A DNA stretch of 36,059 nucleotides from Bacillota bacterium (GTDB lineage: Bacteria > Bacillota > SHA-98 > Ch115). The notes under the pieces were generated by a model. It saw only the letters and a program-made list of their open reading frames with translations. It had not been told where the DNA came from and made no database searches. A program made the position numbers and the translations under genes. The stretch covers positions 1 through 36,059 of the forward strand of contig DUSO01000076.1 of assembly GCA_012842565.1 (NCBI GenBank), in the 5' to 3' direction. Below, piece after piece: positions 14,930 to 33,674 of the stretch (position 1 is its first letter; every line of letters starts with the position of its first letter).

Positions 14930-15481
14930 CTAGAATGTCGGCGGCGTGTTTATCCAGATCGCCTTCGCCTGCGTCGTCCCTATGTTGGTGAGCTTGTGTG
15001 GGATGGAAGAACTGTATGAAATGCTATCGCCTTCCTCAAGGATAAAGACCCTGTCGGCCAACTGGACCTGCAGGGTGCCCTCAAGCACGATGCCGCACTC
15101 CTCCCCCACATGGGAATAGGGCTCGTTCCCGGTCGTAGCCCCTACTTCAAAGACATTGTACAAGACCTCGAGATTGGGCGCGGTCTTTCGCGAAAGAAGA
15201 TAATACGTGATGCCCGAGCCCACCTTGAGGACATTCCGGGCACTTTGCCGGGTGACGAAAGTATCGTCATCGGCCTCGTCGAAGAAGTAGCCGACCGATA
15301 TTCCGAGCGAATCGGCAAGCCTCTTAAGGGTATTCACCGAGGGGTTGGCTTTTCCCCTTTCTATCTGGCTCAAAAGTGCTGCGGAAACGCCGCTGCTCTC
15401 CGCGAGTTGTTTTAGGGTTATCTGCTTTATCTTGCGCAGCTTATGCAGGTTAAGGCCGATAGACATCTTAGTTTCTTGCAC
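14930..15481 (-). CDS. XRE-family HTH plus C-terminal cupin transcriptional regulator
   Basis: [53 protein letters not shown]; cupin segment [41 protein letters not shown]. Start could be GTG 15481 or ATG 15466. Confidence 0.93.
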
Positions 15482-15749: not shown

Positions 15750-16640
15750 GTGAGGGAGAAGTGTTTAGCTCCTGATAGTGCAACAGGGCAAGCGACTTAC
15801 CGTGGAGAACCCCTGCCAGCCATTGCCCAGAGGATCCGGGAGCGGATACTTACGACGATCTCTAATGCCCGGGTCGGCCATCCGGGCGGTTCCATGTCAG
15901 CAGTCGAGATCCTCACATCGCTCTACTTCCACGTGCTCCGGGTGGACCCGGAGAGGCCGGACTGGCCGGAGCGTGATCGTTTCGTGCTCTCCAAGGGACA
16001 TGCTTCATCGGCCCTGTATGCCACCCTCGCGGAGAGAGGGTTCTTCCCACCGGAGCTACTTTCGACATTCGGCAAGATCAACAGCCGCCTCCAGGTACAC
16101 CCGGACATGCACAAGGTGCCCGGTGTAGAGATATCAACCGGTGCATTGGGCCAGGGGCTTTCGGTGGGAGTGGGGATGGCCCTGGCTGCGCGGGCTGATT
16201 ATCCAGAGGGGCGCGGCCGCCCCGGGGTACGCATCTACGTGCTCCTCGGCGATGGCGAATGCCAGGAGGGCCAGGTGTGGGAGGCCGTTATGGCGGCGGC
16301 GCACTACAAGCTCGACAACCTCACGGCCATAGTCGACTACAACCAGGTGCAGCTCAGCGGGCCTGTTGCCGAGGTCATGGAGGTAGCCCCGCTGGCCGAT
16401 AAATGGCGCTCATTTGGGTGGGCGGTAGAGGAAGTTCCAGGCCATGACATCGAGGCATTGATTGCGGGCTTTGACAAGGCCCGCGGGATCAAAGGGCGAC
16501 CTACCGTGATAATCGCCCGCACAGTCAAGGGCAAGGGTGTCTCCTTCATGGAGGGGAAGTCCGCCTGGCACGGTAAACCGCCGGATGAGCAGGAATTGAA
16601 GCTTGCCCTGGAGGAGGTTCGTAGGTCGTGGAAGCAGTAA
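15750..16640 (+). CDS. Transketolase, N-terminal (ThDP-binding) subunit
   Basis: ARVGHPGGSMSAVEILTSLYFHVL, DRFVLSKGHASSALYA, GALGQGLSVGVGMALAAR, GDGECQEGQVWEAVMAAAHYKLDNLTAIVDYNQ. GTG 15750 preceded by GGGGGTGAT. Confidence 0.93.
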   Translation: MREKCLAPDSATGQATYRGEPLPAIAQRIRERILTTISNARVGHPGGSMSAVEILTSLYFHVLRVDPERPDWPERDRFVLSKGHASSALYATLAERGFFPPELLSTFGKINSRLQVHPDMHKVPGVEISTGALGQGLSVGVGMALAARADYPEGRGRPGVRIYVLLGDGECQEGQVWEAVMAAAHYKLDNLTAIVDYNQVQLSGPVAEVMEVAPLADKWRSFGWAVEEVPGHDIEALIAGFDKARGIKGRPTVIIARTVKGKGVSFMEGKSAWHGKPPDEQELKLALEEVRRSWKQ

Positions 16641-17563
16641 GGGATGCTTTCGGCAAGGCCCTTGTGGAGATCGGGCGCCATGATAAACGCATAGTGGTCC
16701 TGGATGCTGACCTCGCCAGCTCGACCAAGGTTACATATTTCGCGGCGGAATTTCCCGACCGGTACTTTCAGGTCGGGATAGCGGAGCAGAACATGACGGG
16801 GATAGCTGCGGGTTTAGCCTTGATGGGCAGGATCCCGTTCACCAGCACCTTCGGGGTTTTCGCCTCCAGGCGGGCATGCGACCAGGTTGCAATGTCGATT
16901 GCGCACCCAAGGCTGCCCGTGAAGCTCGTGGGTGCGTATAGTGGCATCTTGAGTGGGAATAACGGGGCTACCCACCAGGCCGTCGAGGACGTGGCGATCA
17001 TGCGGGCCATACCCAACATGGTCGTGGTTGACCCCGCGGATGCTGTGGAGATGTCCCAGGTCGTGAAGGCCATCGTGGAGTATGACGGTCCCGTTTATCT
17101 TCGCATGAGCCGGGATGCATGGCCGGATGTTGTCCCGCCGGACTACACCTTTAAGTTGGGAAAGTCTGTCTTGCTCAGACCGGGCGATACAGTCGCCCTT
17201 GTATGCAGCGGGATGATGGCCTCGCTCTGCCTCGAAGCCGCGAGCCGGCTTGAGAGGCAGGGAATCTCGGCCATGGTCCTCCATATGCCCACAATCAAGC
17301 CCCTGGATATTGATAGTCTAGTTGAGGCTGCGGAGCAGACCGGGTGCGTGGTTACTGCTGAAAACCATAACGTCATTGGGGGGCTGGGCAGCGCAGTAGC
17401 CGAGGTCCTCTCGGAATTCTGCCCTGTCCCGGTAAAGAAGGTCGGCCTTCAAGATACGTATGGTGAATGTGGCTCAAATGAGGAACTCCTTGAAAAGTAC
17501 GGGCTCTCTGCCGCTCATATAGTCAAAGCGGCTCTGGAGGTCCTGGAGAGGAAGAAAAAGTAA
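16628..17563 (+). CDS. Transketolase, C-terminal subunit
   Basis: VLDADLASSTKVTYFAAEFPDRYFQVGIAEQNMTGIAAGLALMG; overlaps the end of the N-terminal subunit gene by 13 nt. Confidence 0.93.
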   Translation: MEAVRDAFGKALVEIGRHDKRIVVLDADLASSTKVTYFAAEFPDRYFQVGIAEQNMTGIAAGLALMGRIPFTSTFGVFASRRACDQVAMSIAHPRLPVKLVGAYSGILSGNNGATHQAVEDVAIMRAIPNMVVVDPADAVEMSQVVKAIVEYDGPVYLRMSRDAWPDVVPPDYTFKLGKSVLLRPGDTVALVCSGMMASLCLEAASRLERQGISAMVLHMPTIKPLDIDSLVEAAEQTGCVVTAENHNVIGGLGSAVAEVLSEFCPVPVKKVGLQDTYGECGSNEELLEKYGLSAAHIVKAALEVLERKKK

Positions 17564-17632
17564 TTGTCCAAGGATAATTCGTCATCACCTCCATCATAAG
17601 GATGGGGCCGCTCTCATGAGGAGGGAGATGTT

Positions 17633-18658
17633 ATGTCAAAGGTAAGAGTCGGCGTCGCGGGGTATGGAGTTATAGGCCAGCGCCTGGCCGACGGGGTCGC
17701 CCGCCAGGAAGATATGGAGCTGGTGGGGATAGTCGATGTCGCGCCAACCCTGGCCATCCGGGCACTGGCTGAGAAGGGGATGCCGTACAGGTTATTCTGT
17801 GCTGCGCCCGAGAATATGCCCAAGTTTGAGGAGGCAGGAATCCCTGTATCCGGCACTATGGAGGATATCCTGTCCCAGGTGGACGTGATGCTTGACGCCA
17901 CCAGTGCCGGGATCGGGAGGAAGAACAAGGAGCTTTACGTTAAGCACGGTGTGAAGGCCATATTCCAGGGTGGGGAAAAGAACGACGTAGCCGAGGTCTT
18001 CTTCCATGGGTATGCCAACTATGAGAAGGGCGTGGGCAAGGATTACCTTAAGCTCACCTCATGCAACACGACAGGCCTCATTCGAGCGGTGGATTGCCTT
18101 GACCGGGCCTTTGGCGTGGAACGGGTGGTCGTCACCATCATTCGAAGGAGCGCTGACCCCGGGGATACTCATAGGGGAGTGGTCGATTTGGCCCTTGTCG
18201 AGCCTGTACCCAACCACCAGGCAGTGGACCTGATGCATATAATGCCGCATGTGAAGGCCACGGGGGTCCTCGTACACGTTCCCACCACCCACGGCCACAT
18301 CATAACAGTGCTCGCGACTCCTAAGAGGGAGATCACCAAGGAAGAGGCGCTTGCTGAATTCAGGAAGCATCCCAGGATACGTGTTGTGAGGATAGCAGAC
18401 GGGTTTAATTCCAATGCCGCCATGTTCCGCTATGCCCGCGACCTCGGGAATCCCAGGGGGGACATGTACGAGATAGCGGTATTCGAGGAGACCATTGGTT
18501 TTAGCGGCAAGGATATCCTCTTTGCCATAAATATCCCGCAGGAGGCTGTCGTAATCCCTGAGACTATGGACGGGATAAGGGCCTGCATGAAGATGCAGAC
18601 AGTGAGGGAAGAGGCTCTTGCGCTTACCAATAAGTACCTGGGTCTAAAGCCGAGGTAG
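17633..18658 (+). CDS. Type II (archaeal-type) glyceraldehyde-3-phosphate dehydrogenase
   Basis: VRVGVAGYGVIGQRLADGVARQEDMELVGI, DATSAGIGRKNKELYVKHGVKAIFQGGEK, catalytic SCNTTGLIRA, SADPGDTHRGVVDLALVEPVPNHQ. Clearly the archaeal family rather than classical bacterial GapA. Confidence 0.9.
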   Translation: MSKVRVGVAGYGVIGQRLADGVARQEDMELVGIVDVAPTLAIRALAEKGMPYRLFCAAPENMPKFEEAGIPVSGTMEDILSQVDVMLDATSAGIGRKNKELYVKHGVKAIFQGGEKNDVAEVFFHGYANYEKGVGKDYLKLTSCNTTGLIRAVDCLDRAFGVERVVVTIIRRSADPGDTHRGVVDLALVEPVPNHQAVDLMHIMPHVKATGVLVHVPTTHGHIITVLATPKREITKEEALAEFRKHPRIRVVRIADGFNSNAAMFRYARDLGNPRGDMYEIAVFEETIGFSGKDILFAINIPQEAVVIPETMDGIRACMKMQTVREEALALTNKYLGLKPR

Positions 18659-18676
18659 TCCGGGGGGTCGATAGTC

Positions 18677-19927
18677 GTGAAGTATGGGATGAACACCCTG
18701 GATGATTTCGACGTGAAGGGCAAGACCGTGCTGTGCAGGGTCGACATAAACTCCCCCATAGACCCTGCGACAGGTGAGCCCCGTGATATCACCCGGATTG
18801 AGCGGTGTGTGCCCACTATTGCCGAGCTATCCCAAAGGGGGGCGAAGGTTGTTCTCCTGGCACATCAGGGCGGTGACCTGGAGTACAAGAACTTTACCAC
18901 GACAGAGCCCCACGCGAGGATATTGAGCAGACTTCTGGGCCGCCCCGTAGACTTCATTGATGATGTATGCGGCCCTGCTGCCAGGGAAAGGATCAGGCAG
19001 CTCGGGGAAGGGGACATTCTCCTCCTAGATAATGTGAGGTTTATGGCAGAGGAGATGACTCTTTTTGAGACAAAACTCAAGCTATCCCCAAAGGAACAGG
19101 CCAAAACCATTGTGGTGCGAAAGCTCGCACCCCTTGCTGACCTCTATGTATGCGATGCCTTTGCTGCTGTGCACCGCTCCCAGCCAACTCTGGTAGGCTT
19201 CGAAGAGGTATTGCCCTCTGCCATGGGAAGGCTTTTTGAGGAAGAGGTAACTGCACTGAGCAAGGTAAGGGAATCCCCGGAGAGGCCGTGCATCTTCGTG
19301 CTGGGCGGGGCAAAGATCCAGGATGCCTTTATCATAATGTCCTCGGTGCTAAAAGACAAGGTCTGCGATGAGGTCCTGACCTCGGGGCTCGTGGCAAACA
19401 TCATGTTCATGGCCAAGGGGGTTGACATAGGTAAGCCGTCTCGGGACTTTATCATGAGGAATGCGCTTGGTGAATACGTGGAGATGGCAAAGGGCATCTT
19501 GAGCGAGTTTGGAGACCGGGTTGTGTTGCCTGTTGACCTCGCCTATGTGAGGGACGGGAGGCAAGAGACAGGGATAGAGGACCTCCCGGTGGATGAGCTT
19601 ATCGTAGATATAGGGCACAAGACGGTGGATTTGTATTGTGCGAAGATAAGAGAGGCCCGCACGATATTCGTCAATGGTCCCGCCGGCGTGTTTGAAAAGC
19701 CTGAATCTGAGTACGGAACGAAATCTATCTGGGAAGCAATAGCGGCGTCGCATGCTTTTTCCGTGATTGGCGGAGGGGATAGCATTGCGGCGGTAAACAA
19801 ATATGGGCTTGAAAAGGGCTTTTCATATATCTCTACTGCAGGTGGCGGGCTTGTGAGGTTCCTAAGCGGCGAGGAGTTGCCTGTTATTAAGGCGCTGAAG
19901 GATGCGGCCAGGAGGATGGCCCCATGA
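18677..19927 (+). CDS. pgk: Phosphoglycerate kinase, archaeal-type sequence
   Basis: LDDFDVKGKTVLCRVDINSPIDPATGE, VVLLAHQGG, ARILSRLLGRPVDFIDDVCGPAAR, LLLDNVRF, VRKLAPLADLYVCDAFAAVHRSQPTLVGF, VNGPAGVFE, GGGDS. Confidence 0.92.
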   Translation: MKYGMNTLDDFDVKGKTVLCRVDINSPIDPATGEPRDITRIERCVPTIAELSQRGAKVVLLAHQGGDLEYKNFTTTEPHARILSRLLGRPVDFIDDVCGPAARERIRQLGEGDILLLDNVRFMAEEMTLFETKLKLSPKEQAKTIVVRKLAPLADLYVCDAFAAVHRSQPTLVGFEEVLPSAMGRLFEEEVTALSKVRESPERPCIFVLGGAKIQDAFIIMSSVLKDKVCDEVLTSGLVANIMFMAKGVDIGKPSRDFIMRNALGEYVEMAKGILSEFGDRVVLPVDLAYVRDGRQETGIEDLPVDELIVDIGHKTVDLYCAKIREARTIFVNGPAGVFEKPESEYGTKSIWEAIAASHAFSVIGGGDSIAAVNKYGLEKGFSYISTAGGGLVRFLSGEELPVIKALKDAARRMAP

Positions 19928-21177
19928 CTTATGAGACCGTAGTGATTCCATACGGGAAAGGGCATGTAAATGTCTCTATTTCCAGGGAGAATCTCACCGG
20001 GGTGTTTTCGCCGCGCCCTGCCGCTGTGCCGGAGGACCCCGGGAGGCTCGTCAGGGAGGCCCTTCGTAACCCTATCGGCAGCCCGCCCCTGCGCGAGATT
20101 GCCCGTGGGCATAGACAGGCAGTGATCCTCGTAAGTGACATCACCCGGCCTGTGCCGAGCCGTCTCCTGCTTCCCCCAATTCTTGAAGAACTCAAGGCCG
20201 CCGGCATGGGCCCCTCTCAGATTCATATAGTAATTGCGACGGGGCTCCATAGGGGGCATACGGATGCTGAGAAGCGGGCGCTTGTGGGTGACGATGTAGT
20301 AGACAGGTTTCTGGTGGAGGACCATTCCCTCGAGGACTGCGTGGACTGCGGGGCCACGGCAAGCGGGCTGCCGGTGGAGATAAATCGGAGTGTCGTCGAA
20401 GCCGATCTAAGGATCTGTACCGGGAATATAGATCCTCACTACTTCGTCGGCTACACAGGCGGGGCCAAGGCCATAATGCCGGGTGTTTCATCCAAGAGGT
20501 CAGTTACTGCAACCCACAGGATGATGCTCTTGCCCGGGGCCGAGGTAGGCAGGGTTGAAGGCAATCCGGTGCGAGCTGCTATAGAGGAGATTGGGGACAA
20601 GGTCGGGATTGATTTCATTCTAAATGTGGTTGTAAACGAAAAGAAGGAGATTATAGGCGCTGTTGCAGGGCACCATGTGAAGGCGCACCGCGAAGGCTGC
20701 AAGATAGCAGACCAGGTCTTCAAGGTACCGGTACCCGAAGCCTGCGACATAGTGATAGCGGGAGCGGGTGGATTCCCCAAGGACATCAATCTATATCAGG
20801 CTCAGAAGGGGCTTGACAATGCGAGGCTTGCCGTGAAGCAGGGCGGCACGATCATCCTCGTGGCCGAATGCCCGGAAGGCTTTGGCGACGAGACCTTTGA
20901 GGCATGGATGACCGGTGTAGGGGACCCTGAGGAGATAATTGCCCGGATGGAGAGAGAATTCGTGATGGGTGGCCACAAGGCCCTGGCGGTGGCGCTGACC
21001 ATGAGGAAGGCAAAGGTGATCCTGGTATCATCGCTTGACCCGGACCTCGTCAGGCGAGCGCATTTCACTCCGGCTAGCACTGTAGCCGAGGCCCTGGGGA
21101 TGGCCCTAGACCGGCACGGCGGGAGAGCAAAGATAGCCGTGATGCCGTATGCGGGGAGCACGGTGCCGGGCTTATAG
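19924..21177 (+). CDS. Nickel-pincer-dependent 2-hydroxyacid racemase/epimerase family (LarA-like)
   Basis: SDITRPVPSRLLLP, ATGLHRGHTDAEKRALVG, GNIDPHYFVGYTGGAKAIMPGVSSKRSVTATH. The H-x9-K-x15-H spacing equals that of LarA His174/Lys184/His200. ATGA overlap with pgk. Confidence 0.88.
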   Translation: MTYETVVIPYGKGHVNVSISRENLTGVFSPRPAAVPEDPGRLVREALRNPIGSPPLREIARGHRQAVILVSDITRPVPSRLLLPPILEELKAAGMGPSQIHIVIATGLHRGHTDAEKRALVGDDVVDRFLVEDHSLEDCVDCGATASGLPVEINRSVVEADLRICTGNIDPHYFVGYTGGAKAIMPGVSSKRSVTATHRMMLLPGAEVGRVEGNPVRAAIEEIGDKVGIDFILNVVVNEKKEIIGAVAGHHVKAHREGCKIADQVFKVPVPEACDIVIAGAGGFPKDINLYQAQKGLDNARLAVKQGGTIILVAECPEGFGDETFEAWMTGVGDPEEIIARMEREFVMGGHKALAVALTMRKAKVILVSSLDPDLVRRAHFTPASTVAEALGMALDRHGGRAKIAVMPYAGSTVPGL

Positions 21178-21418
21178 TATAGGACTGATAGACGGATATG
21201 TTCTCCTATCCTCTTGAGAAGCCATGCTAAAAAATTCGCCCCGCTAGCAGGAATTTATTAAATTACATCGAATTTTTTATTTAAGGCTCGTAAGTAGTAA
21301 CACCTGCACGCAAATAGGTTCGTTATAGTGAAGGAATTATGGATAAAAGATTGGCTGAACTTAACACCCAGTATTAACAACTTCAATTTCAATGATGAAT
21401 GTCGTGGAGGGAAAAGTC

Positions 21419-22387
21419 ATGGGTGGCAAATGGCAACTGCCGCCGAAGGGCGGCAAGATGGAGTCGAATGAAGGCATATACCTGCAAAACATGACATGGG
21501 CCGCTATCGAGGAAAGGCTCAAGAAGAATGACCTGATAATAGTGCCGGTCGGATCAACTGAGGCGCATGGTCCACACGCGTGCCTCGGGGAAGATACATT
21601 CCTGGTCACCAGGATGGCAGAGGCCGTGGCGGAAAAGACTGGATGCACGGTGGCTCAGCCGATATGGTATGGCTCGCATCCATTTCACCATCTGGGAATG
21701 CCGGGGACTATCGTTGTGCACGAAGATATATTCATCGGTCAACTACGGGCCATCATGGCAGGGCTATGGAACATGGGGTTTAGAAAACAGATATACTTAA
21801 ATGGTCACGGTCAGGAGTATGTGATACCGACTGCCATTCACCAGTTTGCTAAAAGGTACCAAGTGCCAGGCATTTTTATCAATGTGAACTGGTATCATGC
21901 GATCCCTGAGCATCTACAGACCAAGGAGAACGGCGGCCCGTATGAGACCAACTTCATCCATGCAGATGAGGTAGAGACTTCGTGGTCGCTGGCCCTGTTC
22001 CCTGAGTTCATGGACATGTCCAAGGCCGTAGATACAAAGCCGAGGGGTTATCTACCAGAAGGGCATATAGACAAGGCGGGAAATCTACTTCAAAGGCCAA
22101 TCGCATGGTATGGGCATGCGGGATGTGGTCCGATTGAGGTCGTTGCGTTTCCTGAGGGAGTAGTGGGCAGGGCAACCGCAGCTACAGCGGAAAAGGCGAT
22201 CCCCGGAGTTGAGGCCTTTTTGGACTACCTGGAAAAGCTGGTAAACGATATCCTTGCTAAGTTCCCTGCGGGGGAGCTCCCACCAATAGGAGAGCTGACG
22301 CAGAGATCCCGGGAAGAAATAGAGGCGGTAATCAAGGGGCCCTTAAAGGGTGGACGAAGCATATACACTATCGCGTATCCGTCGTGA
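21419..22387 (+). CDS. Creatininase-family hydrolase, IolN-like (diketo-inositol hydrolase candidate), copy 1
   Basis: VPVGSTEAHGPHACLGEDTFLVTRMAE, LNGHGQEYV, FIHADEVETSWSLALFPE metal-ligand motifs. ATG 21419 preceded by GGAGGG. Confidence 0.85.
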   Translation: MGGKWQLPPKGGKMESNEGIYLQNMTWAAIEERLKKNDLIIVPVGSTEAHGPHACLGEDTFLVTRMAEAVAEKTGCTVAQPIWYGSHPFHHLGMPGTIVVHEDIFIGQLRAIMAGLWNMGFRKQIYLNGHGQEYVIPTAIHQFAKRYQVPGIFINVNWYHAIPEHLQTKENGGPYETNFIHADEVETSWSLALFPEFMDMSKAVDTKPRGYLPEGHIDKAGNLLQRPIAWYGHAGCGPIEVVAFPEGVVGRATAATAEKAIPGVEAFLDYLEKLVNDILAKFPAGELPPIGELTQRSREEIEAVIKGPLKGGRSIYTIAYPS

Positions 22388-22408: not shown

Positions 22409-23923
22409 ATGGGCGATGGGCCTTTACTCAAGATGGTCGGGATCACCAAGGAATTTCCTGGCGTAAAAGCACTCAAGGGTGTTGACTTTGAACTTCGCGC
22501 AGGCGAAGTTCACGTCCTAGTTGGCGAGAATGGCGCTGGTAAGTCAACTCTAATGAAGATACTATCGGGGGTGTACAGGCCTGACTCTGGGCGTATTTTG
22601 ATAAATGGAAAGGAGGTGCAGATAACTAGTCCACGAAAAGCCCAGGAGTCCGGGATCGCAACGATATATCAGGAGTTTAACTTGATTCCGTACCTGAGTA
22701 TCGTCCAAAACATCTTTTTAGGCCGGGAGTTGATGACTAACACAGCGATTCCAAGGATGAATTACCGGGAGATGCGAGTGAAGGCCAAGGAGCTTCTGGA
22801 CTCCCTGGGAATTCAAATCAGTCCTGACACGCTGGTAAAGGATCTGAGCATGGCCCAGCGACAGATGATCGAGGTTGCAAAGGCACTATCATTGGAGGCC
22901 CGGATCCTCATTATGGATGAACCTACGTCTGCCCTTACCTCCAGGGAGATCGAGCACCTATTTGACATCGTGAGGGCGCTAAAGGCATCCGGCATGGGGA
23001 TCATCTATATTTCTCACAGATTGGAAGAAATTGAACGGATAGGCGATAGGGTAACAGTGCTGCGTGACGGCGAAGTCATAGGAACAAAGGATGTCAGTGG
23101 ATTAAGCACTGAGGAATTGATAACCATGATGGTCGGGAGGGAGATAGGCGATCTATTCCCGCGGGAACGAGTAAGCAAAGGCGAGGTTGCCCTCAAGGTT
23201 GAACATCTCTCCAGGAGAAATGTTGTCAAGGACGTAAGCCTTGAAGTTCATTATGGCGAAATAGTAGGCTTGGCCGGCCTGGTGGGATCCGGCCGGACCG
23301 AGCTGGCGAGATTAATATTTGGTGCAGACAGGTTTGACCACGGGGAGATCGTTATATCCGGGAGGAGGGTCAAAGGGGACCACAATCCCTCTGCATCGGT
23401 TCGATCAGGTTTGAGTTTCTTGCCAGAGGACCGTAAGGAGCAGGGGCTATGTTTGAGCTTATCTGTAGCAAACAACGTAATTCTGGCCTCATTAAGGAGG
23501 CTATTCCCTCACCGGATAACGAGCCCCCGGCGCGAGATGAATGTTACACTAGATTATGTCAGAAAGCTTCGCATCGCAATCCCTTCCCCTTTTAGGGCTG
23601 TAAAATCGCTGAGCGGCGGGAATCAGCAGAAAGTAGTGCTAGCAAAATGGCTTTGCACCCAGTCAAAGGTGTTCATATTTGATGAGCCGACTCGCGGCAT
23701 CGACGTTGCAGCTAAGGCCGAAATCCACGGCCTAATGAACGAGCTGGCAGAGCAGGGTGCTGCAATATTGATGATCTCTTCCGAGCTTCCTGAGATACTT
23801 GGAATGAGCGATCGTATCTATGTAATGCATGAGGGAAGGATTGTAAAAGAGTTTACGCGGGACGAAGCCACTCAAGAGGAGATACTTCGCTACGCGATGG
23901 GGGGAGTAGGCGGTGCGGCGTGA
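22409..23923 (+). CDS. Sugar ABC transporter ATP-binding protein (RbsA/CUT2-type, two NBDs), copy 1
   Basis: GENGAGKSTLMKILSGVYRPD, LSMAQRQMIEVAKALS, ILIMDEPTSALT; second NBD GLVGSGRTELAR, LSGGNQQKVVLAKWL. Confidence 0.94.
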   Translation: MGDGPLLKMVGITKEFPGVKALKGVDFELRAGEVHVLVGENGAGKSTLMKILSGVYRPDSGRILINGKEVQITSPRKAQESGIATIYQEFNLIPYLSIVQNIFLGRELMTNTAIPRMNYREMRVKAKELLDSLGIQISPDTLVKDLSMAQRQMIEVAKALSLEARILIMDEPTSALTSREIEHLFDIVRALKASGMGIIYISHRLEEIERIGDRVTVLRDGEVIGTKDVSGLSTEELITMMVGREIGDLFPRERVSKGEVALKVEHLSRRNVVKDVSLEVHYGEIVGLAGLVGSGRTELARLIFGADRFDHGEIVISGRRVKGDHNPSASVRSGLSFLPEDRKEQGLCLSLSVANNVILASLRRLFPHRITSPRREMNVTLDYVRKLRIAIPSPFRAVKSLSGGNQQKVVLAKWLCTQSKVFIFDEPTRGIDVAAKAEIHGLMNELAEQGAAILMISSELPEILGMSDRIYVMHEGRIVKEFTRDEATQEEILRYAMGGVGGAA

Positions 23924-24884
23924 GCCTAATGTGTCCAGGGTGCCCGTAAGTGTCAGAAGAGTTCCAGGGACTTTTTACATACTTATAATAATGATCAGTC
24001 TTGCCTCTATTACCATCCCGGGTTTCGGGACGGTCTCGAACTTGCTGAATATCCTACTGCAGGGAAGTTTTCTGGCCATTGTAGCTTGTGGAGCTACTCT
24101 TGCGATTATCAGTAGCGGGATCGACCTTTCCGTGGGGACCGTGTTGAGCCTTTCAGGCGTAGTGACTGGCTTGGCCCTTCATGCCGGCATCCCTATTGCC
24201 TTGGCGATCTTAAGTGGGGTCCTGACCGGCCTTATCTGTGGGATCATTACAGGTAGCCTCGTAGCTTTCGTGGGTTTGGAGCCGTTCATAGCGACATTTG
24301 GGATGATGAGTATGGCCCAAGGTCTCGGCCTTGTTCTGAGCAACGGTGCCTCTATCCCCGGATTCCAGGAATCCTTTAGGTGGTTCGGCGAAGGGGTTGT
24401 TTGGAAAGTCCCTGTACCGCTAATAATTGCCTTGGTTATAGTTGCGTGTATCTGGTGGCTACTCCGGCATACTCGGCTCGGCCTCTATATCTATGCCATA
24501 GGGGGAAGCGAGGAAGTCGCGGGCTGGTCCGGGATAGAAGTCGGGAGATGCAAGTTAGCTTTATACAGCATATCGGGATGTCTCGCCGGGATAGCTGGCG
24601 TCCTTCTGGCCGCAAGAATGAATTCAGGTCATCCGACTGTAGGGGTTGGATGGGAAATGGATGCGATTGCGTCGGTGGTTATCGGGGGCACCCCGCTAAC
24701 GGGAGGTCGTGGCGGGGTTATTGGGACTATGGTTGGGGTGGCTATCGTCTCGGTCCTTAGGAATATTCTCAACATGTTGCGCCTTTCGTCTCCATGGCAA
24801 ATTACTTTAATCGGCGCTATAGTCGTCATTGCAATAGGGCTCGATATCCTTCTCCGCCGGTGGCGACTCGCATTGGAGGGTTGA
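23913..24884 (+). CDS. Sugar ABC transporter permease (RbsC-type), copy 1a
   Basis: GATLAIISSGIDLSVGTVLSLSGVVTG, FIATFGMMSMAQGLGLVLS, VVIGGTPLTGGRGGVIGTMVG; overlaps the ATPase end. Confidence 0.94.
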   Translation: MRREPNVSRVPVSVRRVPGTFYILIIMISLASITIPGFGTVSNLLNILLQGSFLAIVACGATLAIISSGIDLSVGTVLSLSGVVTGLALHAGIPIALAILSGVLTGLICGIITGSLVAFVGLEPFIATFGMMSMAQGLGLVLSNGASIPGFQESFRWFGEGVVWKVPVPLIIALVIVACIWWLLRHTRLGLYIYAIGGSEEVAGWSGIEVGRCKLALYSISGCLAGIAGVLLAARMNSGHPTVGVGWEMDAIASVVIGGTPLTGGRGGVIGTMVGVAIVSVLRNILNMLRLSSPWQITLIGAIVVIAIGLDILLRRWRLALEG

Positions 24885-24886
24885 GA

Positions 24887-25885
24887 ATGTACCAGCGTTC
24901 ACAACAGATCCAGACGTTAACTCACAATGAGATCTCTAAGGGCGTTGCAACGGAGGTTTTCGGGGGCTCCGGATCTCGATTCTTGCTTCTGGTTGGCCTT
25001 ATCGTCGTATTATCATTCATAGCACCCAATTTTCTGTCGCTGAACAACTTTATCAATGTATTCAGGCAAGCCTCACTTCTTTTGATCATGTCAATCGGGA
25101 TGACTCTGGTAATCCTTACCGGGAGGGGTGGGATTGACCTCTCAATCGGCTCCGTATTGGCACTCTCATCCTGCATGGCCGCTTCTGCCTTGAAGGCGGG
25201 ACTTCCAGTGACAGTATCTATAATTATTGGACTGTCCATCGGGGCGTTATGTGGGCTGGTTAATGGTGCTCTTGTGACCATGGTGGGATTACCAGCTTTT
25301 ATCGCAACGTTCGGAATGATGCAGATAGCGAGAGGGGCTGTCCTCCTTTACATGAAAGGGGCTATAATCTATGGATTTAGCCCCGCGTTTCGATTCATAG
25401 GCGCAGGGCATCTATTTGGATTGCCAATGCCGGTGATAGTAGCCGGGGTGCTGTTTGCGGTATTTACCTTTGTGTTATACAGGACTCCTTTTGGTAAAGA
25501 GGTCTATGCAATAGGTGCCAATAGAATAGCGGCGGAACTATCCGGGGTGAGAGTCAATAGAGTCCTCCTCACGGTTTACACGATATCCGGGGCTATGGCT
25601 GCGTGTGCGGGGCTGGTATATATCTCCCGGCTTAATGCAGCCGAGAGCGTAATAGGGCAGCTCTTTGAGCTCCAGGCCATTGCAGCCACAGTCATAGGTG
25701 GTACCTCCTTCCGGGGCGGTGAAGGGGGCCTGATTGGGACAATTGCAGGAGCTCTTATAATAACATTCCTTAATAATGGGATGAACCTTCTTGGAATCTC
25801 GTCCCTGTGGCAGTTATTCGTATTGGGGAGCGTAATAGTTAGTGGAGTAACCTTTGACATGTACTTTTGGCATCGTTCCCGTTAA
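24887..25885 (+). CDS. Sugar ABC transporter permease (RbsC-type), copy 1b
   Basis: SIGMTLVILTGRGGIDLSIGSVLALSS, FIATFGMMQIARGAVLLYM, TVIGGTSFRGGEGGLIGTIAGALI. ATG 24887 preceded by GGAGGG; the longer ORF-track start is unlikely. Confidence 0.94.
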   Translation: MYQRSQQIQTLTHNEISKGVATEVFGGSGSRFLLLVGLIVVLSFIAPNFLSLNNFINVFRQASLLLIMSIGMTLVILTGRGGIDLSIGSVLALSSCMAASALKAGLPVTVSIIIGLSIGALCGLVNGALVTMVGLPAFIATFGMMQIARGAVLLYMKGAIIYGFSPAFRFIGAGHLFGLPMPVIVAGVLFAVFTFVLYRTPFGKEVYAIGANRIAAELSGVRVNRVLLTVYTISGAMAACAGLVYISRLNAAESVIGQLFELQAIAATVIGGTSFRGGEGGLIGTIAGALIITFLNNGMNLLGISSLWQLFVLGSVIVSGVTFDMYFWHRSR

Positions 25886-25987
25886 CCCGGGGATTGGAGG
25901 TGACGGTGTGGAAGTTGTGACAGCAGTTTTCCTGAGCAGGATGCGGTGTCCCAGGTAATTTAAACTCGCATAGGAGGTTGACTCTCG

Positions 25988-26941
25988 GTGATGGCACGGA
26001 AGTTTTTTGTCGCTGCGGTTATTGTGGTAAGTCTGATAGCTATTTTCCTTAGCGGGTCGTCAATTCTGGCTGGTAAGCAATATGAGATCGCGTTTATAGT
26101 CAAGAGCCTTACGAATCCGTTCTGGATTGACATGAAGGCTGGGGCTGAATCGGCGGCCAAGGACCTTAACGTAAAATTGCAGACTATGGCACCAGTGAAA
26201 GCGGATAACGTTGAGGAACAAATTCGTATGATCGAGGATTTGATCCAACGAAAGATAGATGCCATAGTCCTGGCACCTGCTGATACTAAAGGGATCATCC
26301 CGGGCATTGAGAAGGCTAACCAAGCTGGAGTTCCTGTCGTAATTGTAAACACGAAAGCGGCCGGGGGAAAGATAGTCTCTTTTGTGGGCGCAGAGAACTT
26401 CGATGCCGCAACTATGATTGCTGAGCGAGTTGTGGAAAAACTGAACGGCAAGGGTAAGGTAGTCATACTTGAGGGTGTTCCAGCCGCGCAGACTGCAATT
26501 GACCGGAAAAATGGGTTCTTGAGTGTGCTGAAGAAATATAGCGGAATTGAGATCCTGGCATCCCAGACTGCCAATTTCCAAAGGGCAGAAGGGATGATGG
26601 TTATGGAGAACCTACTTCAGCGATTCCCGCACATTGACGCAGTTCTGTGTGCAAATGACGAGATGGCCTTAGGAGCATTGGAAGCAATAGATGCAGCGGG
26701 CAGGCTAAAAGAAATGATTGTCACCGGCTTTGACGCAAACAGAGATGCTGTAGTGGCTGTCCGCGACGGCCGGCTTTTCCTCACATGTGATCAGAACTCT
26801 GCCGCTCAAGGCTCTGAAGGAGTCCGAGCTGCCGTGAGGTATCTCAATGGGGAATCCGTCCCTGCGAGGATCGTGACCAAGGTCATACTTGTCGATAAAA
26901 CCAACGTGGATTCGTACCTCAAAAAATATGGTATCAAGTAA
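25988..26941 (+). CDS. Sugar ABC transporter substrate-binding protein (RbsB-type), copy 1
   Basis: Signal sequence; YEIAFIVKSLTNPFWIDMKAGAESAAKDLNV; LLQRFPHIDAVLCANDEMALGALEAI. Confidence 0.94.
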   Translation: MMARKFFVAAVIVVSLIAIFLSGSSILAGKQYEIAFIVKSLTNPFWIDMKAGAESAAKDLNVKLQTMAPVKADNVEEQIRMIEDLIQRKIDAIVLAPADTKGIIPGIEKANQAGVPVVIVNTKAAGGKIVSFVGAENFDAATMIAERVVEKLNGKGKVVILEGVPAAQTAIDRKNGFLSVLKKYSGIEILASQTANFQRAEGMMVMENLLQRFPHIDAVLCANDEMALGALEAIDAAGRLKEMIVTGFDANRDAVVAVRDGRLFLTCDQNSAAQGSEGVRAAVRYLNGESVPARIVTKVILVDKTNVDSYLKKYGIK

Positions 26942-27336: not shown

Positions 27337-27912
27337 TTGTCACTTGGTAGCCAGCTTCGGGAATTGAGACTTAAAATGAACATAACTTTGGCTGAACTCG
27401 CCGAGAGGACAGGTCTGACAGCTAGTTTGTTGAGCCAGGTCGAACGTGACATTACTACACCGTCAATTGCAACGCTGAGGAAGATCGCTGATGCTCTAGG
27501 AACTGCAATTGGCTACTTCTTCGAAGACGAGGACCAGCCCAAGCCGCCCGGACCGAAACCGGCGGCCCAGGGTAGAAGGTCGCCTGTTGTGCATGAGGGG
27601 CAGCGGAAGATCCTTTCACCCAATAACGGGGTGACTTTTTACCTCTTGAACCCTGACATGAGCGGTCCGATCGAGTTCATCTACGATGTGTTCGAGCCGG
27701 GCGCCAGCACCGGGGATGAGCTCTACACCCATCCAGGTGTTGAATGCGGTTTAATCCTGGAGGGGGAGCTTGAGGTTCAGGTGGGCGAGGATATTTACCT
27801 GTTGGGTAAGGGTGATAGCATAACCTTTAGTTCTGAGGTGCCGCATCGAAAGAGGAATCCCGGGAAGACGAAGTCCATTTCGATTTGGGCAAATACTCCC
27901 CCGTGGTTCTAA
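27337..27912 (+). CDS. XRE-family HTH plus cupin transcriptional regulator, second paralogue
   Basis: LRELRLKMNITLAELAERTGLTASLLSQVERDITTPSIATLRKIADALGTAIGYFFED; cupin GVECGLILEGELEVQVGEDIYLLGKGDSITFSSEVPH; ends SIWANTPPWF. Confidence 0.94.
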   Translation: MSLGSQLRELRLKMNITLAELAERTGLTASLLSQVERDITTPSIATLRKIADALGTAIGYFFEDEDQPKPPGPKPAAQGRRSPVVHEGQRKILSPNNGVTFYLLNPDMSGPIEFIYDVFEPGASTGDELYTHPGVECGLILEGELEVQVGEDIYLLGKGDSITFSSEVPHRKRNPGKTKSISIWANTPPWF

Positions 27913-28097
27913 GTCGGTCATGCCCCTGACCCCTCGGTCCCGCTCCTGACCCCCGCGGGGTATTGGGAGGCCAGACATGGCAGCCAGCCTAGGCATGGTA
28001 CAAGATTCATGGTAGTTGACGGAGGGAGGCTAGACTGCGGTAGCTAACTAAGCACGTAGTTAAATAAACCGATTAAGGGATCAAAGGAGTGGTAGCC

Positions 28098-29063
28098 GTG
28101 TCGAATTGGGAAATCCCTCCAAAGGGAGGGCACATGGACCTCGCAACAGGAATCTATTTTCAAAACATGACCAATAAGCAGGTCGAGAAGCGGCTGAGGG
28201 AGAATGATCTAATCATTATCCCGGTCGGCAGCACAGAGAACCACGGGCCGCATGGGCCATATGGGGAGGATACATTCCTTGTGACCCGAATGGCTGAACA
28301 GGTGGCCCAGAAGACGGGCTGCACAGTGGCGCAGCCGATATGGTATGGGTCTCATCCTTACCAGCATCTGGGAATGCCGGGAACGATCGTTATCCCTGAG
28401 GAGACGTTGGCCGCCTATCTCAGGGCTGTGATCGCTGGTTTCTGGAATGCGGGATTCCGCAAGCAGATCATCATCAACGGCCACGGTCAGGACTATGTTA
28501 TCCCTCTCGCAATTCATCAATTCGGGAAGAAGTACCAGGTCCCGGCAGTCTTGGTCTATGTCCACTGGTGGAATGTCATCACGGAGCACATTCGAGATAA
28601 AGAACATGGCGGTCCATTCGAAACGCCATTCATCCATGCCGATGAGTGTGAGACGTCATATTCTCTCGCCCTCTTCCCGGAGATGTGCGACATGGAGAAT
28701 GCAGTAGACACTGAGCCCACAGGTTTTTTGCCGCCCGGGCATATCGACAAGTCTGGTGAGCCGTATGGGCTCCCGATCAGGTGGTACAACCATCTTGGCC
28801 TCGTGGGGATGGAAGTGATCTGCACCCCGGAAGGGGTCATCGGGCGGGGTACCCTGGCCGAGGCGAGTAAGGCGAAGAAGGGTGTTGAAGCAATCCTGGA
28901 TTACCTCGTCAAATTACATGATGACATCATGAGCAAATTCCCGCCGGGTGAGCTCCCGCCGGTTGATAAGGTGACCCAGCGTTCCAAGGAGGAGATCGAG
29001 GAGCTCATCAAAGGGCCGACAAAGGGTGGCAAACACATATATACGGTTGCTTACCCGGTTTAG
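28098..29063 (+). CDS. iolN: Creatininase-family hydrolase, IolN-like, copy 2
   Basis: PVGSTENHGPHGPYGEDTFLVTRMAEQVAQKTGCTVAQPIWYGSHPYQHLGMPGTIV, INGHGQDYV, FIHADECETSYSLALFPE; adjacent to IolM/IolO-like genes. GTG 28098 preceded by AAAGGAG. Confidence 0.85.
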   Translation: MSNWEIPPKGGHMDLATGIYFQNMTNKQVEKRLRENDLIIIPVGSTENHGPHGPYGEDTFLVTRMAEQVAQKTGCTVAQPIWYGSHPYQHLGMPGTIVIPEETLAAYLRAVIAGFWNAGFRKQIIINGHGQDYVIPLAIHQFGKKYQVPAVLVYVHWWNVITEHIRDKEHGGPFETPFIHADECETSYSLALFPEMCDMENAVDTEPTGFLPPGHIDKSGEPYGLPIRWYNHLGLVGMEVICTPEGVIGRGTLAEASKAKKGVEAILDYLVKLHDDIMSKFPPGELPPVDKVTQRSKEEIEELIKGPTKGGKHIYTVAYPV

Positions 29064-29223
29064 CTCTCGCATGTCCTTTGGTTGCTGTGCCCGTAGCCTG
29101 AGGTATTCAGTCCAACCGGCCCCGGGTGCACAATTTAGCCTGAAATCTCTGAATTGATATCCGATCTCTAAACGGAAATGCGACCCAGTATCTGACAGCC
29201 TCCTCCAGAAAGGAGTGACCGAA

Positions 29224-30378
29224 ATGCCCGACAAGGTGAAAGCCGCCGTAATGACTGCTCCAGGCAAGATAGAGGTCCAGATGCTGCCCTATCCCAAGCT
29301 AGAACGAGGCGCCCTCATCCTCAAGATGGAGATGTCCGGTATCTGCGGGACCGACAAGCACGCATACCAGGGACAGACCCTTCTTTATGGCGGCACTGAG
29401 GCTGAGCAACATATCGTATTCCCCGCGGTACATGGACATGAAAACATCGGGGAGATTGTCGAGATAGATCCCCGGGATCGATTTACCATTGAATATCACG
29501 GGAATGAGCTCAAGGTCGGCGACCGCGTGACAATGTGTCCCAATGTCATCTGCGGTCACTGCTATTACTGCCGTCACATCTTCGCATATCCATTCTGTGC
29601 CAAGAACACGACTATCGGCCTGTCTTATCCGAGCGATCGCCCCCCATATGTAGTAGGTGGGTGGGCGGAGTATATGTTCGTGCCCCCGAAAGCATGGGTG
29701 TATAAGGTCCCGGATGATTTCCCGACCAAACTCGGGGCGCTTGTCGAGCTTTTCGTCGTGACGGCAACTCTGGACCGGGCTAAGGAATTCTCTCGGCTTG
29801 AGGCCAGAGGCTTTGGCTTTGGAGATACAGTAGTGGTACAGGGGGTCGGGCCGATAGGGTTACTCCACGTCACCAAGGCCAGGATCCTGGGTGCCGGCAA
29901 GATAATCGCAGTCGATACATCTCAATACAAGCTCAACCTGGCCATGGAATTTGGGGCTGACTATGCAATAAATATGTCCGAGACCACCAAAGAGGAACGT
30001 GTAGCCAGAGTGCGTGAATTGACCGACGGGCGCGGGGCCGACGTGGTGGTCGAGTGTGCGGGTGTGGCAGATGCGCTGCCTGAAGGGTTGGAGATGATGA
30101 GACGCGGCGGGACCTATATAGAAACGGGCAATTTTGTGGACACCGGCGAGACCACAATCAATGTCCACCGTCACCTTGCCGCCAAGAATGCGCTGGTAAT
30201 CGGCAATTGCAATCACCCGCATAGTGGCTATTACCGGGCCATGGAGATGATGTTGCGATATAATGACCGGTTCCCGTTCGAGAAACTTGTGACCCACGTT
30301 TTCAAGATCGACGATGCTGCCGAGGCCATGGAAAAGTCACTGGACCCGGAGAGTTTGAAGGTGGCGATCGTCCCCTGA
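29224..30378 (+). CDS. iolM: Zinc-dependent alcohol dehydrogenase family, IolM (scyllo-inosose 3-dehydrogenase)-like
   Basis: MEMSGICGTDKHAYQG, VHGHENIGEIVEI, CPNVICGHCYYCRHIFAYPFC zinc-ligand segment, VVVQGVGPIGLLHVTKARILGAGKIIAVD; flanked by IolN and IolO homologues. ATG 29224 (MPDKVKAAVM) after AAAGGAG. Confidence 0.82.
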   Translation: MPDKVKAAVMTAPGKIEVQMLPYPKLERGALILKMEMSGICGTDKHAYQGQTLLYGGTEAEQHIVFPAVHGHENIGEIVEIDPRDRFTIEYHGNELKVGDRVTMCPNVICGHCYYCRHIFAYPFCAKNTTIGLSYPSDRPPYVVGGWAEYMFVPPKAWVYKVPDDFPTKLGALVELFVVTATLDRAKEFSRLEARGFGFGDTVVVQGVGPIGLLHVTKARILGAGKIIAVDTSQYKLNLAMEFGADYAINMSETTKEERVARVRELTDGRGADVVVECAGVADALPEGLEMMRRGGTYIETGNFVDTGETTINVHRHLAAKNALVIGNCNHPHSGYYRAMEMMLRYNDRFPFEKLVTHVFKIDDAAEAMEKSLDPESLKVAIVP

Positions 30379-31232
30379 TGAATGGGGGCCCGACGATGAA
30401 GCGCGTAACAAGCATAGCCTTATCGTTTGAGAAGACAGACTTTGGTCCCGTCCTATTCGGCGGAGACTTGGAAGGCGGTATTCGCCTCATTTCGGAGCTG
30501 GGCTTTCCGGCCGTCGAGATCAGCATCCGCGATCCTGGCCTTGTGGATCGTCGCTGGCTTCATCGCCTCCTCTCGGAAACGGGCATATCCATCTCAGGGA
30601 TTGCAACGGGTCAGGCTTACTATAATGATGGGCTAAGCCTGACGGACCTTAAGCCCGAGAGGCGCAGGGTGTGTTTCGATCGCTTGAAGCATCAGGTCGA
30701 CCTTGTGGCAGAATTTGGGGGTTGCCTTATAGTCGGCGGCATACGCGGCGTTCTCTCGCGAGACCCCGGGGAACGCGAGATGCAGGAGGAGGCATTCTAT
30801 TCCGGTTTTCGGGAGCTTGCGGATTTTGCGCGTAAGGTAGGGGTGACAATTGCTCTTGAGCCCATCAATCGCTATGAGACCAACATGATCAATACGGTCT
30901 CCGAAGGGCTTGATGCACTTGCCCGGCTGGGGTGCGACAATGTGGGGTTGTTGGTTGATACCTTCCACATGAATATCGAAGAACCGCGTATTGCTGACAG
31001 CATACGTAGGGCCGGAAGGGCGGTGGTATATGTCCACATAGCCGATAGTAACCGTTGGGCGCCGGGATTTGGCCATACAGACTTTGGCGAGGTATTGGCC
31101 GCCCTGGATGAGATAGGATACGAAGGCCCCATTTCTGCCGAGATCCTGCCTTGCCCGACAGCCGAGGAGGCAGCCATGGCGGTAGCGAGGTTTTGGAAGG
31201 AGCGATCGACCGGTGGAGCGCGCCGTACTTGA
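30378..31232 (+). CDS. iolO: TIM-barrel sugar isomerase/epimerase, IolO (5-keto-L-gluconate epimerase)-like
   Basis: AVEISIRDPGLVD, GIATGQAYYNDGLSLTD, LEPINRYETNMINTVSEGLDAL, GLLVDTFHMNIEEPRIADSIRRAG, HIADSNRWAPGFGHTDF resemble the remembered Thermotoga maritima TM0416. The start may be the ATG at 30396. Confidence 0.85.
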   Translation: MNGGPTMKRVTSIALSFEKTDFGPVLFGGDLEGGIRLISELGFPAVEISIRDPGLVDRRWLHRLLSETGISISGIATGQAYYNDGLSLTDLKPERRRVCFDRLKHQVDLVAEFGGCLIVGGIRGVLSRDPGEREMQEEAFYSGFRELADFARKVGVTIALEPINRYETNMINTVSEGLDALARLGCDNVGLLVDTFHMNIEEPRIADSIRRAGRAVVYVHIADSNRWAPGFGHTDFGEVLAALDEIGYEGPISAEILPCPTAEEAAMAVARFWKERSTGGARRT

Positions 31233-32718
31233 AATGCACCAGATAACTAAGCAATTCCCCGGCGTGCTTGCCCTAGATAAGGTCGACTTCGACCTCTACC
31301 CCGGGGAAGTCCATATATTGCTTGGTGAAAATGGGGCCGGTAAATCTACCCTCATGAAGACGCTAGCAGGGGCCCATGAGCCTGATTCCGGCACCATAGT
31401 CGTGGATGGCCGTGAGGTGCGCATACGAAACCCCAAACAGGCTCAAGCTCTGGGGATCAGCATCATCTACCAGGAATTCACCCTTATTCCCTATCTGACC
31501 GTGGCTCAGAACATCTTCCTGGCACGGGAGCCGCTCCGCTGGGGGATGAGGGGCCTTGTGGATCGCGACAGGCTTTATGCTGATAGCACCGCCATCCTAA
31601 AGACTTTGGGCATCTCCGTAGATCCCCGCTCTGTGGTATCTACCCTGGGCGTCGCTCAGCAACAATTGGTAGAGGTAGCCAAGGCACTCTCGTTGAATGC
31701 GCGTATACTCATCATGGATGAACCGACCGCTACTCTAAGTGACCAGGAGATAGAGCAGCTGTTTGGGATCATTCACAACTTGAAATCCCGCGGTGTGGGC
31801 GTTATCTATATCTCTCATCGCCTGCAAGAGGTAGGTCAAATAGGGGACCGGGTAACGGTTTTAAGAGACGGACGATCGGTCGGGACCTACAACGTAGCAG
31901 ATGTGGACATCAATACCCTTATCAAGCTGATGGTAGGCCGGGAGGTTATGGAGAAGGCCGACCGCAGGAGTCTTCCTAACGCCCCCGAGGCTCTTCGAGT
32001 AAGTCACCTCCACCGCAATGGGGTGCTTCATGACGTTAATCTAGTGGTGCGCGAGGGGGAGATCGTGGGGCTAGCCGGGCTTGTCGGGTCCGGGCGAACT
32101 GAGCTGGCAAGAGCCATATTTGGCATCGATCCCTTCGACAGCGGCGAAATCGTGCTGCTGGGTAAGAGGCTCGTCGCCACTAATCCGTCTCTTTCCATCC
32201 GTTTGGGTCTGGGGCTCCTACCCGAAGACCGCAAGTCTGACGGGCTCGCACTTATTCTCCCGGTGAAAGACAATGTTACCCATGCATCTCTCACAAGGCT
32301 GTTTCCGTCTTTCATTCTCGATTTTAGAAAGGAGCGGGCCATAGCTGAGCGGTATGTCCGCGACCTCAGGATTGCGACTCCCAATATCTTCCGCCAGGTG
32401 GGCTTTTTAAGTGGCGGCAACCAACAAAAGGTTGTCCTGGCAAAATGGCTGGCAACGCAGTCACGAGTCCTCATTTTTGATGAGCCAACTCGGGGCATCG
32501 ATGTGGGTGCCAAGGCCGAGGTACATGATTTCATGCGCCAACTGGCAAGGCAGGGCGTCGCGATTTTGATGATATCCTCAGATCTCCCGGAGATCGTAAG
32601 CATGAGCGATCGCGTGTATGTGATGCGCGAGGGCACGATCGTCAAAGAGTTGGAGGGGGAGGACATCAATCAGGAGACGATCATCGGCTACGCTATGGGA
32701 AAAGGTGAGGGCCAGTGA
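31213..32718 (+). CDS. Sugar ABC transporter ATP-binding protein (RbsA/CUT2-type), copy 2
   Basis: GENGAGKSTLMKTLAGAHEPD, LGVAQQQLVEVAKALS, ILIMDEPTATLS, GLVGSGRTELAR, LSGGNQQKVVLAKWL. Confidence 0.94.
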   Translation: MERAVLEMHQITKQFPGVLALDKVDFDLYPGEVHILLGENGAGKSTLMKTLAGAHEPDSGTIVVDGREVRIRNPKQAQALGISIIYQEFTLIPYLTVAQNIFLAREPLRWGMRGLVDRDRLYADSTAILKTLGISVDPRSVVSTLGVAQQQLVEVAKALSLNARILIMDEPTATLSDQEIEQLFGIIHNLKSRGVGVIYISHRLQEVGQIGDRVTVLRDGRSVGTYNVADVDINTLIKLMVGREVMEKADRRSLPNAPEALRVSHLHRNGVLHDVNLVVREGEIVGLAGLVGSGRTELARAIFGIDPFDSGEIVLLGKRLVATNPSLSIRLGLGLLPEDRKSDGLALILPVKDNVTHASLTRLFPSFILDFRKERAIAERYVRDLRIATPNIFRQVGFLSGGNQQKVVLAKWLATQSRVLIFDEPTRGIDVGAKAEVHDFMRQLARQGVAILMISSDLPEIVSMSDRVYVMREGTIVKELEGEDINQETIIGYAMGKGEGQ

Positions 32719-33659: not shown

Positions 33660-33674
33660 GGAGGGACGGGACCA

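Follow-up and report, generated by a model that had tools for sequence, protein, structure and literature searches.

Three described systems come close to the locus studied here. The classical inositol pathway of Bacillus subtilis (IolG, IolE, IolD, IolB, IolC, IolJ, and IolA) ends in dihydroxyacetone phosphate and acetyl-CoA, and the Thermotoga-type pathway (IolM, IolN, IolO, and UxaE/UxaD; NF041097-NF041099) proceeds from tagaturonate through mannonate to 2-keto-3-deoxygluconate. In the sulfo-transketolase (sulfo-TK) pathway, the split transketolase SqwGH moves the ketol unit of an anionic keto-sugar to glyceraldehyde-3-phosphate (GAP), giving xylulose-5-phosphate and a four-carbon anionic aldose (PMC11659671). 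Two laboratory constructions are also relevant, namely an engineered E. coli TktA that converts 5-keto-D-gluconate to tartaric semialdehyde (PMC12016104) and a synthetic malyl phosphate pathway for 2,4-dihydroxybutyrate that uses the acyl phosphate of malate and malate semialdehyde (PMC12104201). We analyzed a stretch of 36,059 nucleotides (contig DUSO01000076.1, assembly GCA_012842565.1) from a Bacillota bacterium, referred to as the window. It carries an operon for a split transketolase (TktN and TktC), relatives of glyceraldehyde-3-phosphate dehydrogenase (GAPDH; GapII) and phosphoglycerate kinase (PGK; PGKp), and a LarA racemase. From the gene order, family membership, conservation, residue changes, and IolC absence observed below, we consider it likely that this module processes a carboxylated keto-sugar as lower glycolysis and the pentose phosphate pathway process a phosphorylated one.

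Conserved neighborhood and absence of IolC

When one genome per species was scanned, at least 580 contigs contained a PGKp relative. The best 80 loci were examined, which are the closest relatives of the query alignment and not a random sample, and neighboring genes were assigned by tblastn with reference proteins. They came from Bacillota (many of them gut Lachnospiraceae, Oscillospiraceae, and Christensenellaceae), Spirochaetota, Actinomycetota, and Atribacterota. In 70 of the 80, no more than 500 nt separated GapII from PGKp, so the neighborhood whose conservation the preliminary description, made from the sequence alone, had left to be checked is conserved. Flanks of at least 6 kb on either side were available for 31 loci; of these, GapII was found in 30, LarA in 28, a transketolase or another thiamine diphosphate (ThDP)-dependent E1 in 21, IolB/D/E in 21, and malic enzyme in 12; neither gapA nor a housekeeping pgk was found in any of the 31. 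The commonest order was GapII-PGKp-TktN-TktC-LarA-malic enzyme-IolE-IolB-IolD, with IolG at one end. IolD, IolE, and IolG exceeded the NCBIfam cut-offs in clusters L065 and L066; IolB was recognized through the Pfam KduI/IolB family. A type II GAPDH scored above the cut-off in just eight of 399 genomes of the window's phylum, adjoining PGKp in all eight. The preliminary description had ended the gene set too early and overlooked the inositol genes around the operon.

IolC was not found above the cut-off in any of the 20 genomes carrying an inositol-linked cluster, and 18 of these genomes encoded a second, canonical PGK in addition to PGKp. A module-blind sample of 246 genomes from one class of Clostridia contained 22 IolD-positive genomes besides the seed genome. 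GapII was present in six of the 22 and IolC in 11, or 12 when one truncated copy beside IolD was counted; the two never occurred together (Fisher p of 0.012 with 11 and 0.003 with 12, to be taken as a guide only because the genomes are related). The iol operon of the other four, and of one GapII-positive genome with its module elsewhere, encoded an aldehyde dehydrogenase together with a transaldolase (PF00923, 153 bits). A cleavage module of the kinase/aldolase, the transketolase, or the transaldolase kind was present in each of the 22 genomes, and on gene content the GapII module is predicted to take the place of IolC/IolJ. A survey from 2022 required iolC as a core gene and blamed missing core genes on incomplete or faulty sequences (PMC9430895). 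Unlike in that explanation, the absence of iolC here accompanies a different module.

Variants of the gene set were also observed. The transaldolase and aldehyde dehydrogenase replaced IolC/IolJ in five Clostridia (L166:6913-7986, L167, L168, L169, and L170; IolD positive, with IolC below the cut-off), for which a transaldolase route for inositol is possible. In seven loci (L067, L068, L074, L116, L119, L132, and L136), the place of the transketolase next to GapII-PGKp-LarA-malic enzyme was taken by E1-alpha/E1-beta/E2/E3 genes of 2-oxo-acid or acetoin dehydrogenase type. The carriers include Acetobacterium, Desulfosporosinus, and Peptococcaceae, and our guess is a ThDP-dependent cleavage yielding acyl-CoA. 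One genome (G526) harbors a second module (L177:1686-11055) with the order LarA-malic enzyme-Tkt-PGKp-GapII, together with a Zn-dependent alcohol dehydrogenase, UxaE, and a branched-chain-type ATP-binding cassette (ABC) transporter; this module apparently serves a hexonate rather than inositol.

Substrate sites of the encoded proteins

The GAPDH and PGK had been described as archaeal in type, in agreement with their best solved relatives, which are both from Pyrococcus horikoshii (GAPDH 2czc, 268 bits for GapII; PGK 2cun, 324 bits for PGKp versus 234 bits for the Thermotoga PGK). The proposed PGK phylogeny gave the same picture. Among 54 PGKs placed in a tree, that of P. horikoshii grouped with PGKp, apart from 18 housekeeping bacterial PGKs, on a long archaeal branch whose exact place is unsure.

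PGK binds the 3-phosphate through Arg65, Arg122, and Arg170, and its His62 contacts the bridging oxygen (PMC7729029). The position of Arg65 was occupied by Ser in 70, Gly in 16, and Asp in two of 88 PGKp sequences and by a basic residue in none. All 30 housekeeping PGKs have Arg at this position, and the P. horikoshii PGK has Lys; the window PGKp has Gly66 there. R21, D23, N25, R38, H62, R122, and R170 were retained in all 88 sequences. An AlphaFold model of PGKp (pLDDT, the predicted local distance difference test score, of 86) had low confidence in the loop 66-71 at the lost Arg65 and added nothing.

Compared with four solved archaeal GAPDHs, GapII was altered at the substrate site. The second His of SHHG was replaced by Gln196, the archaeal Leu-Met (TTLMH) at 220-221 by His220-Gly221, and the archaeal His at 302 by Pro302, each in 74 of 74 sequences. 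The archaeal Lys at position 35 was Asp35 in 66 of the 74, which suggests that most members probably use NAD rather than NADP. The catalytic Cys (C144, in SCNTTG) was invariant in eight aligned GapII sequences. Because Arg65 is lost and the GapII substrate site is changed, GapII and PGKp would not be expected to act on GAP and 3-phosphoglycerate. The preliminary description had drawn a branch from GAP to 3-phosphoglycerate, which these changes disfavor, as do the partners of the pair, a malate racemase and a malic enzyme, neither of which acts on 3-phosphoglycerate.

The closest Protein Data Bank relative of the window LarA was Mar2 (6d6z, 409 bits). The catalytic His pair, the Lys binding the nickel-pincer nucleotide (NPN), the Ni-binding His, and the Mar2-type PKD Lys are retained in the window protein; the first three features were present in 62 of 62 LarA relatives and the PKD Lys in 57. 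The residue following His171-Tyr is Phe in the window LarA and Lys in Mar2. Members of the LarAH6 malate racemase group epimerize tartrate weakly, as a side activity (PMC11770544). The racemization of a 2-hydroxy acid that had been assigned to LarA was supported. In the distant LarA of five Spirochaete clusters (L083, L123, L128, L141, and L148; 31-38% identity), Met stands in place of the PKD lysine, and these proteins may differ in specificity.

Proposed reactions and alternative readings

From these observations, we infer every reaction of the module with its substrates and direction. TktN/TktC would move the two-carbon ketol end of a 5-keto-hexonate to an aldose phosphate, for example GAP to give xylulose-5-phosphate, leaving a C4 aldehyde acid. 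GapII would convert this aldehyde and phosphate oxidatively into an acyl phosphate, from which PGKp would transfer the phosphate to ADP, yielding ATP and a D-2-hydroxy-dicarboxylic acid. LarA would then invert C2, and malic enzyme would often decarboxylate the product. In most relatives, this would lead from myo-inositol through IolG, IolE, IolD, and IolB to 2-deoxy-5-keto-D-gluconate, and further through D-malate semialdehyde, D-malate, and L-malate to pyruvate. The proposed malate route would provide one step for each conserved gene. The IolB product 2-deoxy-5-keto-D-gluconate corresponds to xylulose-5-phosphate in which CH2-COO- replaces CH2-O-PO3. Judging from the structures, D-malate semialdehyde is the carboxylate analogue of D-GAP, and D-malate has the same hand as D-3-phosphoglycerate. 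By the same reasoning, the D-threo configuration at C3/C4 needed by transketolase occurs in 2-deoxy-5-keto-D-gluconate, 5-keto-D-gluconate, and D-fructuronate, whose C4 aldehydes would match D-GAP, and C3/C4 of 5-keto-L-gluconate and D-tagaturonate would be wrong for transketolase.

A tartrate pathway for all loci was rejected, as the clusters with iolB/D/E lead to the 2-deoxy acid and hence to malate. For the window, the donor is proposed to be a non-deoxy 5-keto-hexonate (5-keto-D-gluconate or D-fructuronate), because IolN, an IolM-like alcohol dehydrogenase, and an IolO-like epimerase replace IolB/D/E and no IolD was found above the cut-off in its genome (best match of 219 bits versus 715). 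The product would be tartrate, the meso form from fructuronate and L-tartrate from 5-keto-D-gluconate. TktN/TktC of the window showed 58-60% identity to those of the IolN locus L069 versus 37-45% to most transketolases of inositol-linked clusters, and GapII and PGKp diverged less than the transketolase between the window and these clusters, as expected if the window transketolase sees a different donor.

Membership in the GAPDH and PGK families, together with the kept catalytic Cys (SCNTTG) and most of the 3-phosphoglycerate site, would also fit ordinary glycolysis, in which GapII and PGKp oxidize transketolase-derived GAP to 3-phosphoglycerate and LarA is an unrelated racemase. We rejected this reading as quite improbable. 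The preliminary description had raised the question of a classical gapA-pgk elsewhere, and the window's genome (2.55 Mb, 97.8% complete) does contain an ordinary cggR-gapA-pgk cluster with a canonical second PGK on a separate contig (C144), so that GapII and PGKp are best regarded as dedicated paralogues; the canonical PGK of 18 of 20 relatives speaks in the same direction. The loss of Arg65 and the altered GapII substrate site were uniform across the sequences compared, and the pair is constantly accompanied by a malate racemase and malic enzyme (in the window's genome on contig C164), not by a mutase or enolase. Moreover, ordinary glycolysis offers no explanation for the exact match between the presence of the module and the absence of IolC. 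The module could alternatively run in reverse, reducing malate to malate semialdehyde to build keto-sugar acids, and the GAPDH and PGK reactions are indeed reversible. We consider this assimilative direction very improbable, since uptake transporters, genes for inositol degradation, and regulators of the LacI/DeoR type surround the module and malate is drained by malic enzyme.

The product of the window itself is a separate question. The IolN branch might supply a deoxy-ketohexonate, formed perhaps from quercitol or another deoxy-inositol, so that malate would be formed in the window too. In line with this, L075 and the IolN-type cluster L114 contain malic enzymes close to the inositol-linked type (79% identity between the L114 and L067 enzymes), GapII and PGKp differ little between the two variants, which interleave in the PGK tree, and LarA belongs to the malate racemase group. 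This reading is nevertheless rather unlikely, as both IolN copies are far above the cut-off of an equivalog model for 3-dehydro-scyllo-inosose, which gives a non-deoxy keto-gluconate, and the window transketolase stands apart from most inositol-linked ones as described above. In addition, UxaE, which interconverts tagaturonate and fructuronate, was found in two clusters without IolB/D/E (L096, which has IolN and an IolO-like gene, and L177) and points to fructuronate.

Several results weigh against the proposed carboxylate pathway or its tartrate form. The comparison set for the substrate sites was small (four archaeal GAPDHs and one archaeal PGK), and PGKp residues 66 and 168, tried as a marker for malate versus tartrate, tracked phylogeny and failed to separate the loci. 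Some inositol clusters (e.g., L115, L118, L133, and L146) have GapII-PGKp-LarA without a transketolase in the stretch read. The prediction of a canonical UxaE in the window's genome failed, with only a 100-bit partial match found in a 584-aa open reading frame (ORF) on contig C70, which leaves the route from the IolN product to a transketolase-competent donor unsettled for the window. LarC, considered as supporting evidence, pointed the opposite way, as a PF01969 search gave no match in the window's genome (LarB and LarE were not searched) and found LarC in 11 of 23 genomes and not in the other 12. LarC inserts nickel for the LarA cofactor, whose supply is therefore unexplained. The window's genome and 11 others combine a LarA having all cofactor-binding residues with this lack of a LarC match.

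Layout of the window and comparison with described pathways

All five ORFs of the operon and their overlaps were present as first described (Table 1), with 13 nt shared by TktN and TktC and an ATGA overlap between PGKp and LarA. TktN starts at a GTG at 15750, with GGGGGTGA just 5' of it, and the longest ORF runs from 15681. A bacterial-type promoter (TTGATA-17-TATAAT) had been attributed to this locus. The site exists, but it lies on the minus strand (15543-15515) and thus would serve the divergent XRE-cupin gene and not the five-gene operon. LarA is followed on the same strand by two parallel operons, one of IolN-1 and an RbsABC-like transporter (21392-26941) and one of a second IolN, the alcohol dehydrogenase, the IolO-like gene, and an Rbs-like transporter (28089-35743). 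Different inositol isomers may be the substrates of the two IolN copies, or the two may cleave the symmetric diketone from opposite sides. Upstream of the operon, a gene of the diphosphate-dependent phosphofructokinase family (3773-5026; NF010675, 479 bits) could recycle fructose-6-phosphate derived from xylulose-5-phosphate. A 389-aa ORF at 2625-3794 matched neither NCBIfam nor Pfam, and an Rfam scan of the window gave zero matches.

Table 1. Positions, strands, and family matches of features in the window.
Feature	Position	Strand	Match or remark
XRE-cupin regulator	14930..15481	-	divergent from the operon
TktN, N-terminal (ThDP-binding) half of split transketolase	15750..16640	+	PF00456 195 bits; NF004559 318 bits over the N-half
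TktC, C-terminal half of split transketolase	16628..17563	+	PF02779 and PF02780; NF004559 297 bits over the C-half
GapII-like dehydrogenase	17633..18658	+	NF003251 402 bits (cut-off 185); proposed phosphorylating dehydrogenase of malate/tartrate semialdehyde
PGKp, PGK-like kinase	18677..19927	+	PF00162 383 bits; proposed malyl-/tartryl-phosphate:ADP kinase
LarA, malate racemase group (LarAH6/Mar2)	19924..21177	+	NF052593 537 bits (cut-off 500)
IolN-1, 3-dehydro-scyllo-inosose hydrolase family (creatininase fold)	21392..22387	+	NF041098 553 bits (cut-off 245)
RbsA/RbsC/RbsC/RbsB-like sugar ABC transporter, probably for cyclitol	22409..26941	+	
Second XRE-cupin regulator	27337..27912	+	
IolN-2, second copy	28089..29063	+	NF041098 565 bits (cut-off 245); 79% identity to IolN of locus L069
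Zn-dependent alcohol dehydrogenase, IolM-like (putative scyllo-inosose 3-dehydrogenase)	29215..30378	+	best NCBIfam match IolM, 165 bits, under the cut-off of 450
IolO-like keto-gluconate epimerase	30378..31232	+	NF041099 285 bits, slightly under the cut-off of 300
Second Rbs-like ABC transporter set	31213..35743	+	

The preliminary description had seen here a dedicated, co-transcribed pathway entered through transketolase, a view that gained support with a keto-sugar acid as the entering compound, and knew of no described pathway with this gene combination. Our search of the open-access literature (most subscription journals lie outside it) for inositol with transketolase, malate semialdehyde, malyl phosphate, or malic enzyme likewise found no such pathway. 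The route is apparently undescribed, and the distribution of its genes suggests that it is common in gut and sediment anaerobes. It is fairly probable that the module represents a widespread branch for the breakdown of inositol and sugar acids. Its GAPDH and PGK relatives would have been re-purposed to carboxylate analogues of GAP and 1,3-bisphosphoglycerate, forming malate or tartrate with substrate-level ATP. In many gut Clostridia and Spirochaetes, the module would stand in for IolC/IolJ, and it could be the route from inositol to butyrate that has been missing. According to a 2025 review (PMC12482443), the conversion of myo-inositol to butyrate by gut bacteria, Dysosmobacter welbionis among them, is uncharacterized, and the gene set could be a concrete, testable candidate for it. 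If the proposal is true, two activities would be added, that of a phosphorylating malate-/tartrate-semialdehyde dehydrogenase and that of a kinase acting on the corresponding acyl phosphate. Inositol acids would have a third way of being split, LarA malate racemases would gain a clear place in sugar-acid catabolism, and automated annotation would mislabel genes of the GapII/PGKp type as glycolytic.

At the protein level, GapII and PGKp share their folds and the catalytic Cys with the archaeal type II GAPDH and PGK (2czc and 2cun) and differ from them by the GapII substrate site and the loss of Arg/Lys65 in PGKp. Mar2, the LarAH6 enzyme of Thermoanaerobacterium thermosaccharolyticum, belongs to the same equivalog family as the window LarA and shares its catalytic residues and PKD lysine, with no role in a sugar-acid pathway described. 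The TktA chemistry on 5-keto-D-gluconate equals the first step proposed for the window but is an engineered or side activity in TktA; the subsequent oxidation in the engineered route reportedly relies on unrelated aldehyde dehydrogenases, not on GAPDH/PGK relatives. The malyl phosphate pathway shares the type of intermediates proposed for the module but is synthetic, and it is said to carry the phosphate on the C4 carboxyl and to flow in the reductive direction.

With the Thermotoga-type pathway, the window shares two IolN copies, an IolM-like alcohol dehydrogenase, and an IolO-like epimerase, the latter two under the equivalog cut-offs (165 of 450 and 285 of 300 bits), and has the transketolase-GapII-PGKp-LarA set attached to them. 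IolG, IolE, IolD, and IolB of the classical pathway are common to most clusters, whereas the IolC/IolJ pair is in none of the iol-linked clusters, and the window's genome additionally lacks an IolD match above the cut-off; the proposed end products are malate or pyruvate and xylulose-5-phosphate. A parallel is offered by the degradation of sulfoquinovose, in which sulfo-EMP (Embden-Meyerhof-Parnas), sulfo-TAL (transaldolase), and sulfo-TK correspond to the splitting of inositol acids by kinase/aldolase, transaldolase, and transketolase. As in sulfo-TK, a split transketolase stands beside sugar-acid genes in the window and its relatives. The substrate is a sulfonate there and a carboxylate here, and the C4 product of sulfo-TK is isomerized and cleaved again to sulfoacetaldehyde, whereas oxidation with a gain of ATP by the GAPDH/PGK pair, followed by racemization by LarA, is proposed for the present module.

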